Positions 36,085 through 59,980 of a stretch of DNA of 64,000 nt are shown one piece after another. The stretch's first letter is position 1; the number at the start of each line of letters is the position of its first letter. The stretch is from Butyricicoccus sp. Marseille-Q5471. Its GTDB lineage: Bacteria; Bacillota; Clostridia; Oscillospirales; Butyricicoccaceae. The notes beneath the pieces were generated by a model that saw only the letters and a list, made by a program, of their open reading frames with translations, did not search any database and was not told the DNA's origin. The DNA lies in contig NZ_CATNVC010000001.1 in assembly GCF_951230135.1 (NCBI RefSeq), positions 202,746 to 266,745 on the forward strand. The letters run 5' to 3'. The translations under genes and the position numbers were made by a program.

Positions 36085-36414
36085 TTACTCCTTAAATACA
36101 ACAAAACATCCGTACTGCGTACCGTTCACCGTCAACGACACCCAATCACCATTATCCGTAAGAGTTACCATATCAGGGTTAGGTGATTTAGGGTCAATCG
36201 TCACTTGCCTAGTCGCATTGTTGTAATGCAAGATTGCAAATTTATTCGGAGTTGATGACCCAGTGTTTGACGTAACGATTATGATCGTATTTTCGGAATC
36301 CTTTGTATATCCAGCGGTATTGGATTGCACCGACCGTAAAGCCCATACATCAAACTTGATGGGCTTAAACAATACATTGTCTGATTCCACGATTCCCTGT
36401 AAAATCGCCCGCAT
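36085..36414 (-). CDS. Hypothetical phage tail-region protein
   Basis: 109 residues predicted to be mostly beta strand, starting [18 protein letters not shown]. No recognised domain. Its start overlaps the stop of the fibre gene by one base, so it may cap, chaperone or decorate the fibre. Confidence is in the gene rather than in any role. Confidence 0.6.
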   Translation of the reverse strand: MRAILQGIVESDNVLFKPIKFDVWALRSVQSNTAGYTKDSENTIIIVTSNTGSSTPNKFAILHYNNATRQVTIDPKSPNPDMVTLTDNGDWVSLTVNGTQYGCFVVFKE

Positions 36415-38153
36415 TACGCCACCCCCCCATAAAGTAGCAATGGGATATTAACCTGCGGCACATCCGTTCCCTTTGTCCGGGCAACAAGGCTGCCGTTTGC
36501 CGTGTCAATATATCGTACTAACGCAAGTGCTTCCTCGATGAGCGCATTCGCCGATTCATCTGTTGTGTAATTCGGGCCAATATAAGCACTTTTCATTTCG
36601 GCCATCGCCACAGAGCATGACACCGTCTGTGTATACACCGTGCCGGACTGCGTCCAGCCGGATGCCAACAGGGTGACTTCCGCCGAGACTGGTTTCATGG
36701 TTTGTAGATTAGCGCGCGCACCGGCAGCAGTCCCAGAACCCGTGCCGCCGTTTTCAATGGCCTGCATATGGTTTGCTGCCGCCTTGCCGTTCCACGTCGT
36801 GCGCTCCGTTGCCGTAACGTGCTTTACCGCATCGGCCTGATGCGTTTGCAGATTTTTCTGCACCTCCTGTGCCGCTCCGGCAACGTCCGCACCAACCTGC
36901 TCAGCTGTCACACCATGCGGATTTGTCTTATTGGCAATGTGTCCCGGCAACGTAGCAAATGCCTGATACAGCCCGGATTCCGTGCCACTGTACCCGGCTT
37001 CCGTCGCCGCCGTGTATGCGGACTTTCCATCCTGCCCAGGCACGCCCTGCGCACCTGCAACGCCTTGCGCACCCGGTACGCCTTGCGGACCCTGCACGCC
37101 CTGTTCGCCCTGCGGGCCGCGCGGACCTGTGTCGCCGGTATCGCCCTTTGGGCCCTGTATTCCCTGCAAGCCCTGCGGCCCCTGAGGGCCTTGCAGCTTG
37201 CCGAGCGACTTCCAGTCAGAAAGCAATTCCGACCAAATGTAAATACATTCATCGGCCGAAACCATATAGGCATATGCATCCCCACCCGGAATCGCTGCTT
37301 TCAGCGCACCAAGCGTTGGATAAATATCTTGTATGGTAAACGACCGACCGTCTGCGCCATCGTTGCCACGATCACCCTGAGGGCCTTGTGGCCCTTGTGC
37401 GCCTGTTGGACCCGCCGCGCCGCGCGGGCCAATTTCACCCTGCGGTCCTTCCGGGCCTTGAATACCCGGCACACCCTGTATGCCCTGTGCACCCTGTGCA
37501 CCTGTCAAGCCCTGCGGACCCTGCACGCCTGCCACGCCCTGCGGACCGCGAATGTTAACCGGCTGCGGCAGGTTTGCAACATCCTGCACCGCCCACTGGA
37601 TAACGCCATCCGCGCCAACGGTAGGCACGATAACAACGCCGCGTAATCCCTGCGGGCCTTGCACGCCCTGTGCACCTGTGTCGCCTTTATCGCCCTTGTC
37701 GCCTTTGTCGCCCTTAACGCCGTGAACAATGGTTTTCGTACCGTCGTCAGTCACTTCACAGTTTGAAAACTGCATGCGTCCGCGCTGCGGAAAGGATTCC
37801 CCGTTTTTGTCCATGACGATATGTCCGCTAGATCCTGTCGCCTGCCACACGTTTCCGTCTGCTGAGGTTTCAAGCACCTTGTCACTGTTTACGCGGATAA
37901 ACTTTACATCATTGGTTCCAAACCGAACGGATTCATTCAGTTCCACTTGCACTGTTTTTCCTGCAGCCGTTCCGATTTCGCCAGCGCCGCCCGAACCCTC
38001 TAAAATGGCGGTAACCTGATTGATATAATCCCGCAACTGTCCATGCAGCCGCATTAGCTGTTCGCGCACTTCTTCTTCGTTTGCCGGGTCGGGAAATGCG
38101 GTTGTATCCGCAAGCCCGCTTTCCGGGTTAAACTTCATTTTTTCAAACGCCAC
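36414..38153 (-). CDS. Collagen-like tail fibre protein
   Basis: 579 residues. The amino terminus (about 1-145) is an attachment domain with a helix ([20 protein letters not shown]). Two blocks of Gly-X-Y repeats (about 147-285 and 325-385) are rich in GPQG, GAQG and GDKG. A beta-rich insert lies between them ([20 protein letters not shown]). The C-terminal part (about 385-579) contains the [15 protein letters not shown] motif typical of fibre knobs. Collagen-like triple helices are common in phage fibres and build the host-binding rod. Confidence 0.88.
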
Positions 38154-41634: not shown

Positions 41635-42564
41635 TCAGGAAATAGAAATGCCGTTCAGGCCGTCAAGCACTGGATCGCGGCCGCCGGTCTGTTCCAGCCC
41701 GGTTGCCGATCCAATCGCTTTTTGACGCACATGCGCATTCTGTTTCAGCGTCGCATTTTCCGCTTCCAGCTCCTTAACGCGGTGTGTTGCAAATGCCGCA
41801 GTCAAGTCCATGCCGCCTTCAACCTGCGACCACACGTCGGCGGGAATATCAGCGGCCGGAATACCCGGAAAGTTTGCCATAAACTGCTGAAACATGCGGT
41901 TCTGCTGCTCCTGTGCCTGTTCCTGCTGTGCCTGTGCGGCACGTTCACTTTCGATCTCTGCGCGGAAGCGTCTGCTCTCGGCCAACTCCTGCGCCATTTC
42001 CTGCGAAAGCCCGGTTTTCTCCATGATCTGGCGCACTTCGTTCTGCCGTTCCTGTTCGGCCATGGTTTCAATGTACTGGTCAACAGTCATGCCGTAATCA
42101 CGTGCCTTGCGCTCTACCAGCTGCATGGCCGGATTTTGTGCAAGCTGCTGCTGTACCAGCGTCTGAATCTGATCCGGCGCGGGCGGTTGTGCCGCTGCAA
42201 TCCGTTCTGCCATCTGTGCGGCCGTCATTTGCACGGTCTCGCCGCCAATCTGCACCGGGAAAGTAGGCTCCGCGCCTGCGGGCGGCTGCTCCTGCTCTCC
42301 CGCTTCGTCTTCCGGCTGTTCTACGCCGCCGAACACATCGTCTGTCTCGCCATCGCTCATGCCTGCAAAGATTGCTTCCAACGGATCAGCGTCCGCTCCG
42401 AGCGCCGCGTCCGGTGCACCACCCGCCGTGCCCGGATCATCAATCGCCGCCGAATCACCAGCCTGTGCGGTTTCCAGCTCTGCAAATGCTTCACCCTCGG
42501 CAAAGAACTGAATACCCATGCATGCGCGAACATCCGCGCCAAGCGTTAAATTCTTGTTTTCCAT
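41635..42564 (-). CDS. Capsid scaffold protein
   Basis: 309 residues, acidic amino terminus (about 40-110, rich in Asp/Glu/Ala), long helical middle (about 120-270) very rich in Gln, Glu and Ala (QAQQEQAQEQQNRMFQQF), and a short positively charged end. This composition and the position between portal and coat genes identify a phage scaffold. The start ATG at 42564 has GGAGG eight bases upstream and follows the tandem stem structures at 42587-42796. Confidence 0.85.
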   Translation of the reverse strand: MENKNLTLGADVRACMGIQFFAEGEAFAELETAQAGDSAAIDDPGTAGGAPDAALGADADPLEAIFAGMSDGETDDVFGGVEQPEDEAGEQEQPPAGAEPTFPVQIGGETVQMTAAQMAERIAAAQPPAPDQIQTLVQQQLAQNPAMQLVERKARDYGMTVDQYIETMAEQERQNEVRQIMEKTGLSQEMAQELAESRRFRAEIESERAAQAQQEQAQEQQNRMFQQFMANFPGIPAADIPADVWSQVEGGMDLTAAFATHRVKELEAENATLKQNAHVRQKAIGSATGLEQTGGRDPVLDGLNGISIS

Positions 42565-42586
42565 GTCATTACCTCCATTTCATAGC

Positions 42587-42681
42587 GCCTGCGCTCTGAC
42601 GGGCGGGCAAGTTGGATACCTGCCCTAATCACCCGCCGTATCCTTCGGTCGTTTATGGCAAACGCCCGTCACAGCGCAGGC
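42587..42681 (-). ncRNA. Structured element 2 between portal and scaffold genes
   Basis: The arms GCCTGCGCTCTGACGGGCG (42587-42605) and its complement at 42663-42681 match at 18 of 19 positions around a 57-base loop that itself contains GGGCA ... TGCCC. It lies just upstream of the scaffold binding site. The inner stem reads GGGCG/CGCCC where element 1 has AAGCG/CGCTT, a compensatory difference. There is no T-run, so it is not a simple terminator. Confidence 0.6.
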
Positions 42682-42699
42682 AGTGCGTTTATTTTTACC

Positions 42700-42796
42700 C
42701 CGGCGCTCTGACAAGCGCACCCCGTTCCGCAGCGGTGCGCCTGCCGGAGGTTAAAACCAAGCAGGCTGGCTAAATACCCGCTTGTCAGAACGCCGG
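42700..42796 (-). ncRNA. Structured element 1 between portal and scaffold genes
   Basis: Arms CCGGCGCTCTGACAAGCG (42700-42717) and 42779-42796 match at 17 of 18; the odd pair is G-U in minus-strand RNA but A-C in plus-strand RNA, which points to leftward transcription. The loop contains a second hairpin, GCGCACC/GGTGCGC. It ends nine bases after the portal stop. Confidence 0.6.
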
Positions 42797-42804
42797 TAGT
42801 TTTT

Positions 42805-44484
42805 CTACATGCCGCCGAACACCTGTTCAGCGATTTCTGGGTTTGATTCAAGCTGTGCACGTTCTTCATCGGTAAGCTGTGCCAACACATTTTCAGGATT
42901 GACCGCCGAAGCCGCTTGCTGTGCCTGCATCTGCTGCATTTGTAGCATCTGCTCTTCTTTGGCACGCTTCTGCTTCAAATGTGCGATCAAATCACCCTTG
43001 TTTGTCAGAATTCCATCGGGCAAAGATTCCAAGAACAAAATAGGATCATCAATGATTTTCTTGTTGAACAGATTGTCCATTGTCTGCATTTGGCTGATTT
43101 CCGACCACATTGCAGCGCTGCCAATGTCAACATTCACCCGAAGGTGCATCCCCTTCATTTGTGAAAAGTCAAATTCGGTTATGACCTCTTCTCCATTTTC
43201 ATTTGAATAGCTGACCTTGCGCCGGCCGTAGTCAGTGGAGAGAATATCAATGATAATCCGCACGTAATCTTCCACGAATTGATAGAACGCCATGCGCTGT
43301 AATTCCAGCGGCGCAGCACTTGCCTTTTGCACGGCTACAATAGCACTTGTGTTGTCCGGCTTGATATTGCCCAGCGCCGCGTCACTCGCGCCCATCGTAT
43401 CCCGTGTATATGCAATCGTCTTGTCAATAAATTCGGCCACTTGTGTTGACATGTTGTGTACGCCGGTTTGAATAAACAGCGCCTTTTCCGGGTTGTCCTT
43501 AACGCCGTATGCGGCGGTTGGATCATCGGACAGGCCGTTCGGCAGTTTGCTTTTATCGTAAATAACGGTCGGAAACGCGTTCCGCTGCATGCACGCCATT
43601 GCATAGGCGTACATCTTATTGATGAAAATCTGGTTCGGAATCTCCCCCGAAATTGCACCCATGCCGTGAAATTGGTTGCGCACGGTTTCCCATTGCAGGA
43701 ATGCCACTGGATAAAGCGTGTATTCCGTGTCGCGCTCCGGCATAACAATGCAGTTCTGTGTAGTTTTCAGCGCATGAACTGTCCCGTTTTCCTTCCAAAG
43801 CTTTAGCGCAACGGTCACACGCCCCGTGTCCGGCAATCCAACCGATGTTTTATCCTCTTGGTTTACATCGGCCTGAATCTGGCTCAAATCGTCCTCCGGC
43901 ACACCGTTGCTTCGCGCTTCCTCGCGCACTTCGTCAATGTCGCGTCGGCTGAGCAGCAGTAAATACCGCTGTTTCTGTATGTCCGCCGAATATGGATTGG
44001 CCGGAATAATTTCAGTCGTGTCTATGACCTCGCAGCAGACACGGCCTTCGGCGGTCTGCCCGCTGCTTTCGTCCGGATCAAAGAAGAAATATGCTGCCGT
44101 ATCTCCATGCACAGCCGCATTGCGCAAGAACACGCGGTTTTTATCCTTAATCCTGCACATTTCAAAAATGCGGTCAATTTCATCCGAAAGAATCTTGGTG
44201 AATATCGCCGTTTGCTCATTGTTTTCCGATAAAAACGGACGAATGTTTGCCGCGATATTATCGGAAACCACCGTCGAAACAAAATAGCTCACGACGCGGC
44301 GCAGAATATTGAACTGCGGCTTTGCAAGCTTCTTCGCCTTAACGCCTTCCCATTGACGGCCGATAAAGAAATTTTCATTTTTCTTGACCTGGTCATACCA
44401 GTTCAGTGCGTCATTGCTTTCCACTCCCTTCTGGTACTCCTGCCAAATACCGCGCGGCTCCTTCACAAATCTGCTCATTCGCAA
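42805..44484 (-). CDS. Portal protein
   Basis: 559 residues, forming the dodecameric ring through which DNA is packaged and ejected. Features: ENFFIGRQWEGVKAKKLAKP near 45, VVSYFVSTVVSDNIAANIRP near 75, and a helical C-terminal barrel region with Met/Gln-rich QMLQMQQMQAQQAASAVNPE near 520. The pattern fits P22-type/Podovirus-like portals of Firmicutes phages. It lies directly downstream of the small membrane protein and TerL. Confidence 0.85.
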   Translation of the reverse strand: MRMSRFVKEPRGIWQEYQKGVESNDALNWYDQVKKNENFFIGRQWEGVKAKKLAKPQFNILRRVVSYFVSTVVSDNIAANIRPFLSENNEQTAIFTKILSDEIDRIFEMCRIKDKNRVFLRNAAVHGDTAAYFFFDPDESSGQTAEGRVCCEVIDTTEIIPANPYSADIQKQRYLLLLSRRDIDEVREEARSNGVPEDDLSQIQADVNQEDKTSVGLPDTGRVTVALKLWKENGTVHALKTTQNCIVMPERDTEYTLYPVAFLQWETVRNQFHGMGAISGEIPNQIFINKMYAYAMACMQRNAFPTVIYDKSKLPNGLSDDPTAAYGVKDNPEKALFIQTGVHNMSTQVAEFIDKTIAYTRDTMGASDAALGNIKPDNTSAIVAVQKASAAPLELQRMAFYQFVEDYVRIIIDILSTDYGRRKVSYSNENGEEVITEFDFSQMKGMHLRVNVDIGSAAMWSEISQMQTMDNLFNKKIIDDPILFLESLPDGILTNKGDLIAHLKQKRAKEEQMLQMQQMQAQQAASAVNPENVLAQLTDEERAQLESNPEIAEQVFGGM

Positions 44485-46704: not shown

Positions 46705-47202
46705 ATGCCACGCAAACAAAGCATTAATGTCACCGTGCAGATTGACAAGGCCACACTGACCGAAGCAATACAGGATGCACAAATAAACGCTGCACCACAG
46801 ATAGCACCCGAAGTTATCTCTGAATCCATATTGGCCGCAATCGAACAGCATAAAACCAATGAGATGATCTTAGCTGACAAAAACGCTGCCACAAACTATA
46901 CGCGTGTTATTATTACTGGTATGCTTTGGGTTATCGGTGGTACCGCTGGCCTATTCGCATTAGGTTTTGCTATCATGGTATTCGGTGTTTTTGGGCGCGC
47001 CGGAGATTCTCTACCAACAAAAATCACACTGTCTATCCTCTGTGGTGCTCTTACCACAATTCTTGCAACCATTTCATACATTACCTTTGTTACCGCATCC
47101 CGTATCCAGAAGGAAAATGATCGTCAGTTTCTAGCTTCCTTTTTAGCCTGTATTGCATCTACTGTTGCATTACTCATTTCAATCCTTCAATATGTAAAAT
47201 AA
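46705..47202 (+). CDS. Small three-helix membrane protein, partner of KAP NTPase
   Basis: 165 residues. The amino-terminal 60 are soluble (QSINVTVQIDKATLTEAIQD), followed by three membrane segments at about 71-95, 106-128 and 143-163. GGAGG lies seven bases upstream. It is AT-richer than the phage genes and transcribed against them, together with the KAP gene after a short hairpin. It may anchor the NTPase to the membrane. Confidence 0.7.
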   Translation: MPRKQSINVTVQIDKATLTEAIQDAQINAAPQIAPEVISESILAAIEQHKTNEMILADKNAATNYTRVIITGMLWVIGGTAGLFALGFAIMVFGVFGRAGDSLPTKITLSILCGALTTILATISYITFVTASRIQKENDRQFLASFLACIASTVALLISILQYVK

Positions 47203-47293: not shown

Positions 47294-48712
47294 ATGCAGG
47301 AATCCCTTTACTTCTCAGAGCATGACGAGTTTTCCAGAAAAAAGTATGCTGACTTTCTTAAAGATTTAATCTTAAACTGTAATGAATATAAGCGAGATAA
47401 CGCTTCAGACGCCTATTCCATAGCTATCGATTCTTCTTGGGGAACAGGTAAATCATATTTCTTCAATATGTTCACGAACTATCTTTATGGGATGGAAAGT
47501 GAAAAAGATATTATGCCTTCGGACAATCCCGTGCCATTCGTTGTTGTTAATTACAATGCTTGGTCAAATGACTATTGGGATGATTCATTTACCCCCTTTT
47601 TACAGGCCATTCTTTCAAATGATCGTTTTATGGGGTGTGATTGCGTTGCAAAAATAAAGCGGATTGCTTCTTCCATTATCAATGCTCTTGACAATCCGAT
47701 TTCAAAAACCTATAAGGAATATCACAAGAGCAATCCACTCGCAAAATTATCCGTAATGCAAATCCAGCTCAGCAATCTCAAATCCTATTTCTCAAAACTA
47801 ATTAAGGAACTTGGCGATTCTACGAAGCTAATTGTAATTGTAGATGAATTAGATCGTTGCAAACCATTGTTTGCAATTCAAACTCTGGAAATTGTAAAAC
47901 ACTTTTTGGATATTAAAGACATTGTTTTTGTATTTGCCGTAGATCTTTCTCAGCTTTCTCAATCTATTAAGGCCATATATGGGAGCGGTTTAGATGCAAC
48001 AGGCTATCTTTGCAAATTTTTTGATTATATTACAAAATTCCCTCAGCCCGACTTGCATTCTCTTATTTCAAAAAATCTTCCTACATTTCATAGCCCCCTG
48101 TATAGTGAACCTTCAATCCCAGAACCCCCTAGCACTATAGTAAATTACCTTTTAGACCTCTATCAAGCCTTTGATTTATCCATTCGTGATTTTCAAACAA
48201 TTTTGCAAAATTACAAAATAATGTATCATAATTTTCTATCTGCCTATGAGCTTATTCAAGCTCATAAGATTTATCTATTCTGCCTAGTCATGAAATATAA
48301 ATATCCTCTTATCTTCACAGATTTATTTATTAAAAACACAGATTCCCAGAAGCGCTTTGCCGAGTTAGGCTTAGCCGTTAATAATCTCTGCAGTAAGCAT
48401 CAGAATCCATTAAAAAATTTTGAATTTAATCTTGTATCACGCAAATGTATTGGCGACATGACGGAACAACTCTCAGATTCTTCAATATATATTTCAGACA
48501 TCAGATTTGATGCGTTAAACAATGAATTGTTATTTCCACACCCAGGTTATGGGATAAACTATGAATACAGAATAAATTCCAAAACTTGGAGTGGATCACT
48601 TTTCTACCCGGATTGGAAACACTTGGAAGAAATCAAATCGCTACCTTATGGCCAGTACATTCACCAGCAACTTGAGTGCTTTAACTTTTCAAATAGCCTA
48701 TCTTCTGATTAA
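47294..48712 (+). CDS. KAP family P-loop NTPase
   Basis: 472-residue AAA-like STAND-related NTPase. Walker A SSWGTGKS (47-54); Walker B IVIVDELDRCKP (about 182-193), then FVFAVDLSQLSQSIKAIYG, both diagnostic of the KAP family. The family (named for Kidins220/ARMS and PifA) includes the F-plasmid PifA protein that excludes phage T7. The C-terminal half is helical without a known domain and no membrane helices are obvious, which fits anchoring by the preceding gene. It is AT-rich, unlike its neighbours, and so probably acquired. An exclusion role is inferred. Confidence 0.85.
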   Translation: MQESLYFSEHDEFSRKKYADFLKDLILNCNEYKRDNASDAYSIAIDSSWGTGKSYFFNMFTNYLYGMESEKDIMPSDNPVPFVVVNYNAWSNDYWDDSFTPFLQAILSNDRFMGCDCVAKIKRIASSIINALDNPISKTYKEYHKSNPLAKLSVMQIQLSNLKSYFSKLIKELGDSTKLIVIVDELDRCKPLFAIQTLEIVKHFLDIKDIVFVFAVDLSQLSQSIKAIYGSGLDATGYLCKFFDYITKFPQPDLHSLISKNLPTFHSPLYSEPSIPEPPSTIVNYLLDLYQAFDLSIRDFQTILQNYKIMYHNFLSAYELIQAHKIYLFCLVMKYKYPLIFTDLFIKNTDSQKRFAELGLAVNNLCSKHQNPLKNFEFNLVSRKCIGDMTEQLSDSSIYISDIRFDALNNELLFPHPGYGINYEYRINSKTWSGSLFYPDWKHLEEIKSLPYGQYIHQQLECFNFSNSLSSD

Positions 48713-59739: not shown

Positions 59740-59765
59740 GAAGATAAGCACATGTCAATTTCATA

Positions 59766-59980
59766 AGTGGTATCCGGGTGTCTCAACTCCGACGCAGGAT
59801 TTGGGATGAAAAGGGAAGCAGGTGAAAATCCTGCGCTAAGCCGTAGCTGTAAAGGCGGAGCGGTTTCCAATATGTCACTGAAGAGCAACCCTCTTTGGGA
59901 AGACGGAAATCGTGCCGATGCCTGAGCCAGAAGACCTGCCCCGATATGACGCACAAGGAACCTCTCCGGACTTGAGAGGG
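59766..59980 (+). promoter_or_regulatory. Cobalamin riboswitch
   Basis: Conserved blocks appear in order: GGGAAGCAGGTGAAAATCC (with CCTGCGC), AGCTGTAAAGG, TCACTGAAG, GGGAAG and the B12-box-like GCCGATGCCTGAGCCAGAAG followed by ACCTGCC. A hairpin CCTCTC/GAGAGG (59961-59979) follows. It binds adenosylcobalamin or a related corrinoid and controls the RNA downstream. The next 230 bases contain two terminators and no plausible gene. Confidence 0.9.

Follow-up and report, generated by a model that had tools for sequence, protein, structure and literature searches.

Two structured elements that lie in tandem between the portal and scaffold genes of a prophage belong to a new RNA family, most of whose known members come from Butyricicoccaceae-type prophages. 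They were studied in a window of 64,000 nucleotides from Butyricicoccus sp. Marseille-Q5471 (contig NZ_CATNVC010000001.1), which holds a prophage of an Agathobaculum-group genome whose late-transcript strand is the minus strand. Rfam 15 gave no match at gathering score in positions 42400-42950 (the best weak ones had E ≥ 0.4, far below the cut-off), and eight related loci gave tRNA matches only. Known ribozymes were rejected for want of an Rfam match, and a sequence-only reading of this DNA, which had recognised no described family in the fold, agrees with that result. What emerges is a well-supported, Rfam-absent RNA family at the capsid and terminase genes of prophages of gut bacteria, a setting where the control of protein ratios matters and about which little is known. 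Many copies carry a piece resembling the tail of 16S rRNA, which suggests that the family probably helps to control the translation of neighbouring phage genes. The function inferred from these sequences, to which a probability of about 0.4 is given, is that of a cis-acting element in polycistronic phage mRNA that would gate the access of ribosomes to adjacent cistrons.

The gap that holds the elements (42565-42804) has the portal gene on one side and, on the other, an ORF in the scaffold position ahead of the major head protein, all on the minus strand. The portal protein has homologues at 84% in G010 and 70% in G047, and those of the scaffold-position ORF stand at 64% and 55%. Having no match in Pfam or PHROG, the scaffold gene owes its name to its position alone; with that qualification, the placement of the elements between portal and scaffold genes was correct. 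The gap contains nothing promoter-like, and its transcribed strand nothing terminator-like, on which ground an intrinsic terminator (a GC hairpin with a U tract) was rejected. Elsewhere in the window, a collagen-like Gly-X-Y structural protein, probably a tail fibre, is encoded at 36414-38153 (minus strand), and a cobalamin riboswitch (116.7 bits) lies at 59759-59957 (plus strand). A KAP-family P-loop NTPase (47294-48712, plus strand, E 1.6e-34) adjoins the terminase genes on the opposite strand and, with a small ORF with hydrophobic stretches beside it (46705-47202, plus strand), forms a pair that resembles an accessory or defence cassette.

Table 1. Coordinates, in the window, of the two elements, their parts and the neighbouring genes.
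Feature	Position	Strand	Details
Portal protein gene	42805..44484	-	Upstream neighbour in the transcript; phrog_156 portal protein, E 1.6e-26
Element 2 (type A)	42700..42796	-	First transcribed; z -7.0; CM R2 81.1 bits; homologues with compensatory changes in G010, G047 and L033
P1 5' strand of element 2, CCGGCGUUCUGACAAGC	42780..42796	-	Pairs with 42700-42716
Alternative hairpin a.b of element 2, CAAGCGGGU / GCCUGCUUG	42758..42784	-	Excludes inner P1
Junction ACCUCC of element 2	42746..42751	-	Identical to a 16S rRNA 3'-tail (anti-SD) segment
P4 of element 2	42717..42739	-	GC-rich hairpin adjoining P1
P1 3' strand of element 2, GCUUGUCAGAGCGCCGG	42700..42716	-	Pairs with 42780-42796
Element 1 (type B)	42587..42681	-	Second transcribed; z -7.2; CM R2 69.2 bits
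P1 5' strand of element 1	42664..42681	-	Mismatch G (G.G) at 42672
Type B motif AAGGAUACGG in element 1	42636..42645	-	Common to G006C187b and G019b; similar in G022b
P1 3' strand of element 1	42587..42604	-	Mismatch G (G.G) at 42596
Shine-Dalgarno GGAGGU of the scaffold-position gene	42571..42576	-	Sequence
Scaffold-position gene	41635..42564	-	Downstream neighbour; between portal and head protein

Each element is multi-branched, about 95 nt long and closed by a helix of 17-21 bp, P1. The inverted arms are 95% (42587-42605/42663-42681) and 94% (42700-42717/42779-42796) complementary, the fold energies of the two elements on the minus strand are -56.3 and -61.2 kcal/mol, and none of 200 shuffles of the transcribed-strand elements folded as well; the fold z of the whole gap on that strand is -7.3. 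The two tandem stem structures of about 95 bases described from the letters were recovered in this way, as were their common TCTGAC/GTCAGA core, the inner pairs (AAGCG/CGCTT in one, GGGCG/CGCCC in the other) and the outer pairs, which differ between the elements yet still pair. An imperfect pair that is G-U only in the transcribed strand also exists (U-G on the minus strand, C-A on the plus strand), but it sits in the element at 42700-42796 and not, as had been claimed, in element 1. In the element at 42587-42681 the imperfect pair is G.G on the minus strand (C.C on the plus strand), a mismatch that recurs in many relatives, and the type B relatives of this element are G006C187b, G019b and G022b. 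Kissing between the junctions of the tandem type A and type B elements was not above shuffles (P 0.20).

The strongest evidence for a conserved RNA comes from P1, which is about 16-21 bp long and next to P4 in the copies examined. Across 20 aligned copies, 95.8% of the P1 cells were paired, and two-sided changes were seen in 10 of the 19 pairs. The covariation score was 0.354, as against 0.168 ± 0.014 in shuffles, with 0 of 500 as high, a count that is not a probability (nor are the other shuffle counts given here) because many copies share ancestry. Slid registers scored at most 0.118, and RNAalifold predicted P1 unaided. One position varies among C-G, G-C, U-A and, most often, a G.G mismatch. 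A census of 16 distinct arm pairs counted 17 G-U cells versus 4 A-C cells, and the sense strand was more stable than the antisense in 22 of the 25 copies, which argues that the element works as RNA; covariance model (CM) scores were likewise higher on the transcribed than on the opposite strand. Such a strand bias is predicted of an RNA in a transcript and not of a symmetrical DNA site. Covarying outer ends and a strand-specific G-U bias led to the rejection of a MITE reading. The suggestion of a conserved RNA fold is therefore strongly supported by compensatory changes in many relatives, by the sense-strand bias and by the lack of a known family.

The interior of the element can pair in two ways. 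The 5' strand of inner P1 (a) is able to pair with the 5' strand of the internal hairpin (b), freeing the other two strands, c and d, to pair together; one state has a long P1 and the internal hairpin, and the other a short P1, a 5' hairpin and an extended 3' hairpin. The alternative helix a.b was paired in 90.7% of cells, and its covariation score was reached by 0 of 500 shuffles. Its summed score was 364, versus 242 ± 29 in shuffled interiors (0 of 300 as high), the constraints on a.b and b.c being not fully separable because b also pairs with c. The helix is missing at the required register in 2 of 20 copies, and the energy gap between the two states ranges from 0 to 8.6 kcal/mol.

The nearest relatives occupy the same site. 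One was found in G010 by a DNA search of related genomes (83% identity) and another in G047 via a portal search, with IMG/VR contig L033 carrying the G047 sequence; each locus has one element of type A with compensatory changes, e.g., CUGAC/GUCAG to CCGGC/GCCGG. It had been proposed that homologous phages with the same genes and no preserved pairing would speak against the fold, and portal relatives at about 40-45% identity are indeed without the element, but these nearest homologues keep the pairing. In the same portal-scaffold gap of one distant portal relative (L034:4583-4770), several unrelated-looking GC-rich hairpins were seen. Single-sequence portal and scaffold searches of IMG/VR and GTDB contigs returned no relatives, so that an alignment query and whole-genome searches were required, and BLAST of the gap against phages gave chance matches only.

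The covariance-model search suggested from the sequence was carried out with a model from three sequences, not just the two copies, and found a copy directly before the TerL gene in a different G010 prophage; further copies were added by pattern scans and from TerL relatives. Within the genus, a second model, built from ten sequences, had matches in 9 of 25 genomes, and within the family in 12 of 87 (3 of 15 genera). Samples of the order (394 genomes) and the class (391 genomes), searched with stricter filters, gave no match outside this genus, and the named genomes with pattern matches were all Agathobaculum. Divergent copies were found on two viral contigs, before TerL in L063 and after it in L070. 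Three matches were set aside as chance: pattern matches L055, within coding sequence, and L133, within GC-rich coding sequence, and CM match L037, for which no phage context was seen. The total came to 25 distinct copies in 19 prophages or phage contigs, the relatives being few and kin, with many copies of common ancestry; one G018 contig carrying two copies contains an assembly gap.

Across copies the element is multi-branched and about 93-154 nt in size. In the regions examined every copy is co-oriented with the flanking genes, and 22 of 25 lie in the head/packaging region. Copies follow the portal gene in G000 (the window), G010, G047, G006, G019 and G022, and the order type A then type B at this site is common to G000, G006, G019 and G022. 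In TerL-type prophages they precede TerL, with the L070 copy the only one that follows it. G006 also has a copy before a gene that we take, from the start of its sequence, to be DUF4406-like, and copies occur in the early regions of two g7 prophages, G123 and G030, the latter with two tandem copies of its own. The P4 hairpins of the G011 element (L125:4373-4515) and the G019b element (L126:4310-4466) are extended by a similar CGUUCCUACGC hairpin, which occurs in one type A and one type B element. Directly 3' of the element and 5' of TerL in L122 (4761-4895, plus strand) is a tRNA (Rfam RF00005, 46 bits) whose anticodon-arm region is longer by about 70 bases; L119 and L120 have a similar sequence, and ARAGORN called neither this tRNA nor the related copies.

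In the TerL-type prophages the element has a regular companion, an ORF of about 50 residues with an invariant C-x3-CPM-x-N ... C-E-S ... E-C-P-H pattern. This Cys4-His ORF lies 5' of the element in 9 of the 10 TerL-type prophages with an element before TerL (the exception is L063), is also present in the portal-type G006C187, and persists as a remnant in G022. It was absent from element-free TerL relatives (0 found) and from the window, and no Cys ORF stands beside the element in G010 (portal site), G047 or G019. The recurrent pairing of element and ORF suggests a cognate binding protein. The ORF had no family matches in Pfam, PHROG or NCBIfam, and AlphaFold gave no confident fold (mean pLDDT 55, unusable).

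The type A junction between hairpins holds pyrimidine runs, e.g., UUUCACCUCC, CUCCUCCUUUC and CCCUCCUUUUUC, and the junction or loop carries a copy of the anti-Shine-Dalgarno (anti-SD) tail of 16S rRNA. With junctions delimited by hand, the longest matches to the 16S 3' tail summed to 109 over 18 copies, versus 77.4 ± 3.8 for shuffled junctions (0 of 2000) and 74.7 ± 7.7 for shuffled tails (0 of 500). Three copies (L056, G123 and L063) do not match in this way, and the anti-SD segment is missing from the L056/L065/G012 lineage, G123 and L063. Type B junctions showed no significant match to the tail (P 0.11), and carry AAGGAUACGG or a near form instead. The 16S tail GGCTGGATCACCTCCTTT is present in the Agathobaculum-group G010, and the exact pattern was not found in the window's own draft genome or in G012. 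From the 3' end of the element it is usually only a few bases to the SD of the gene that follows (scaffold, TerL). Junctions paired no better with the SD of their own gene than with swapped SDs (P 0.95), a test that is weak because the SDs are near-consensus.

If the element gates ribosome access, it would fold as the late transcript is made and control the neighbouring SDs through its anti-SD segment; ribosomes on the upstream gene, or a bound protein, would drive the rearrangement between the two states, and the yield of the downstream protein would change. An anti-SD mimic joined to two-state pairing makes this a specific and testable mechanism, and the position of the element next to the SD of TerL or the scaffold gene favours it. 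Against it, the 3' end of a fully formed P1 often comes within a few nt of the SD, which is ill suited to direct pairing in cis; the junctions gave no sign of having co-evolved with particular SDs; and type B elements and the lineages named above do without the anti-SD. Control of head-gene expression, as suggested earlier, would agree with where the element mostly lies, ahead of scaffold or TerL. Such control is putative, and the element is not limited to head genes, as the DUF4406-like gene and the early regions attest; a role in assembly, or in packaging as such, found no support. Ranking next after ribosome gating, and doubtful, is an insulator function in which host RNase III would cut the 17-21 bp duplex stacked on P4, so that the essential gene downstream is split off from the (often accessory) message before it and gains a constant 5' end just before its SD. 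The host encodes RNase III, and every copy has a long P1 with almost perfect pairing, which amounts to a duplex of about two helical turns in the copies examined; the 3' end adjoins the next SD. RNase III sites of phage and Bacillus mRNAs are also long intramolecular duplexes in intergenic mRNA, and the Bacillus subtilis enzyme cuts such duplexes (PMC11780869). Cleavage does not, however, need the strong sequence conservation of P1, the alternative pairing or the anti-SD junction, which, with the branched interior, set the elements apart from those sites.

The remaining roles are less likely, and some of the candidates could coexist. It is improbable that the element is a DNA-level gene-cassette junction, travelling with small genes, whether recombined site-specifically in the manner of integron attC or serving in shuffling as an anchor of homology, as the PeSL of T4 do. 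Those cassettes also have palindromic elements with variable interiors at the 3' ends of small genes in unrelated contexts, and here elements stand behind various small ORFs and at unrelated loci; moreover, DNA homology between the portal-type G006C187 and the TerL-type G004, G018C30 and G012 is limited to the Cys ORF plus the element, whose 3' end is where it breaks off. The ends of attC bear conserved R boxes (RYYYAAC / GTTRRRY), which were not seen by inspection; the ends found were CCGGCG...CGCCGG or compensated variants, in which pairing and not fixed sequence is kept. Furthermore, attC recombines through its bottom strand (PMC2727003), whereas G-U bias and fold energies here favour the sense strand. 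The window copies have no cassette gene, and the elements no intrinsic terminator or promoter. Very unlikely, too, is the precursor of a trans-acting sRNA, a stable element excised from the mRNA whose C-rich anti-SD loop would bind SDs in the mRNAs of host or phage. Some Firmicutes sRNAs do have C-rich loops with which they bind SDs, and the anti-SD-like loops and very stable fold would suit such a molecule, but the lack of promoter-like and terminator-like sites and the consistent position before essential genes suggest a role in cis. The same low standing is given to processive antitermination, in which the nascent element would bind RNA polymerase and make it ignore operon terminators, as put RNA of HK022 does. 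Co-orientation inside operons, sequence conservation within stems, tandem copies and a narrow host range would fit, and put is likewise a phage-encoded structured RNA of the transcript strand that can occur twice per genome. The put RNA is about 70 nt, has two stem-loops and lies near early promoters (PMC9378689), in contrast to multi-branched elements in intergenic gaps of late or early operons, mostly mid-operon. Antitermination would also leave the anti-SD mimic unexplained.

With ribosome gating as the preferred reading, the known system that comes closest in layout, as an analogy only, is com-mom of phage Mu. Com of Mu, a CCCC zinc finger, has 62 residues (PMC6483171). The present ORF gave no match to a known family, the SD lies outside the fold, and in the window, as in several relatives, the ORF is absent and no Com-family zinc-finger protein was found upstream. 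It is conceivable, if unlikely, that a small zinc-binding regulator and a two-state RNA mimicking the anti-SD tail together form a mobile module of phages, which could be placed before essential operon genes to tune their translation; the tandem type A/type B pair of the window would then be a derivative from which the regulator has been lost. The coordinates and alignment allow others to trace the family. In the TerL-type phages, a small Cys-rich (zinc-finger-like) ORF is followed at once by a structured RNA, and this in turn by the ribosome-binding site of the next gene; there the Cys4-His protein is a candidate binder of the element, as Com is for mom.
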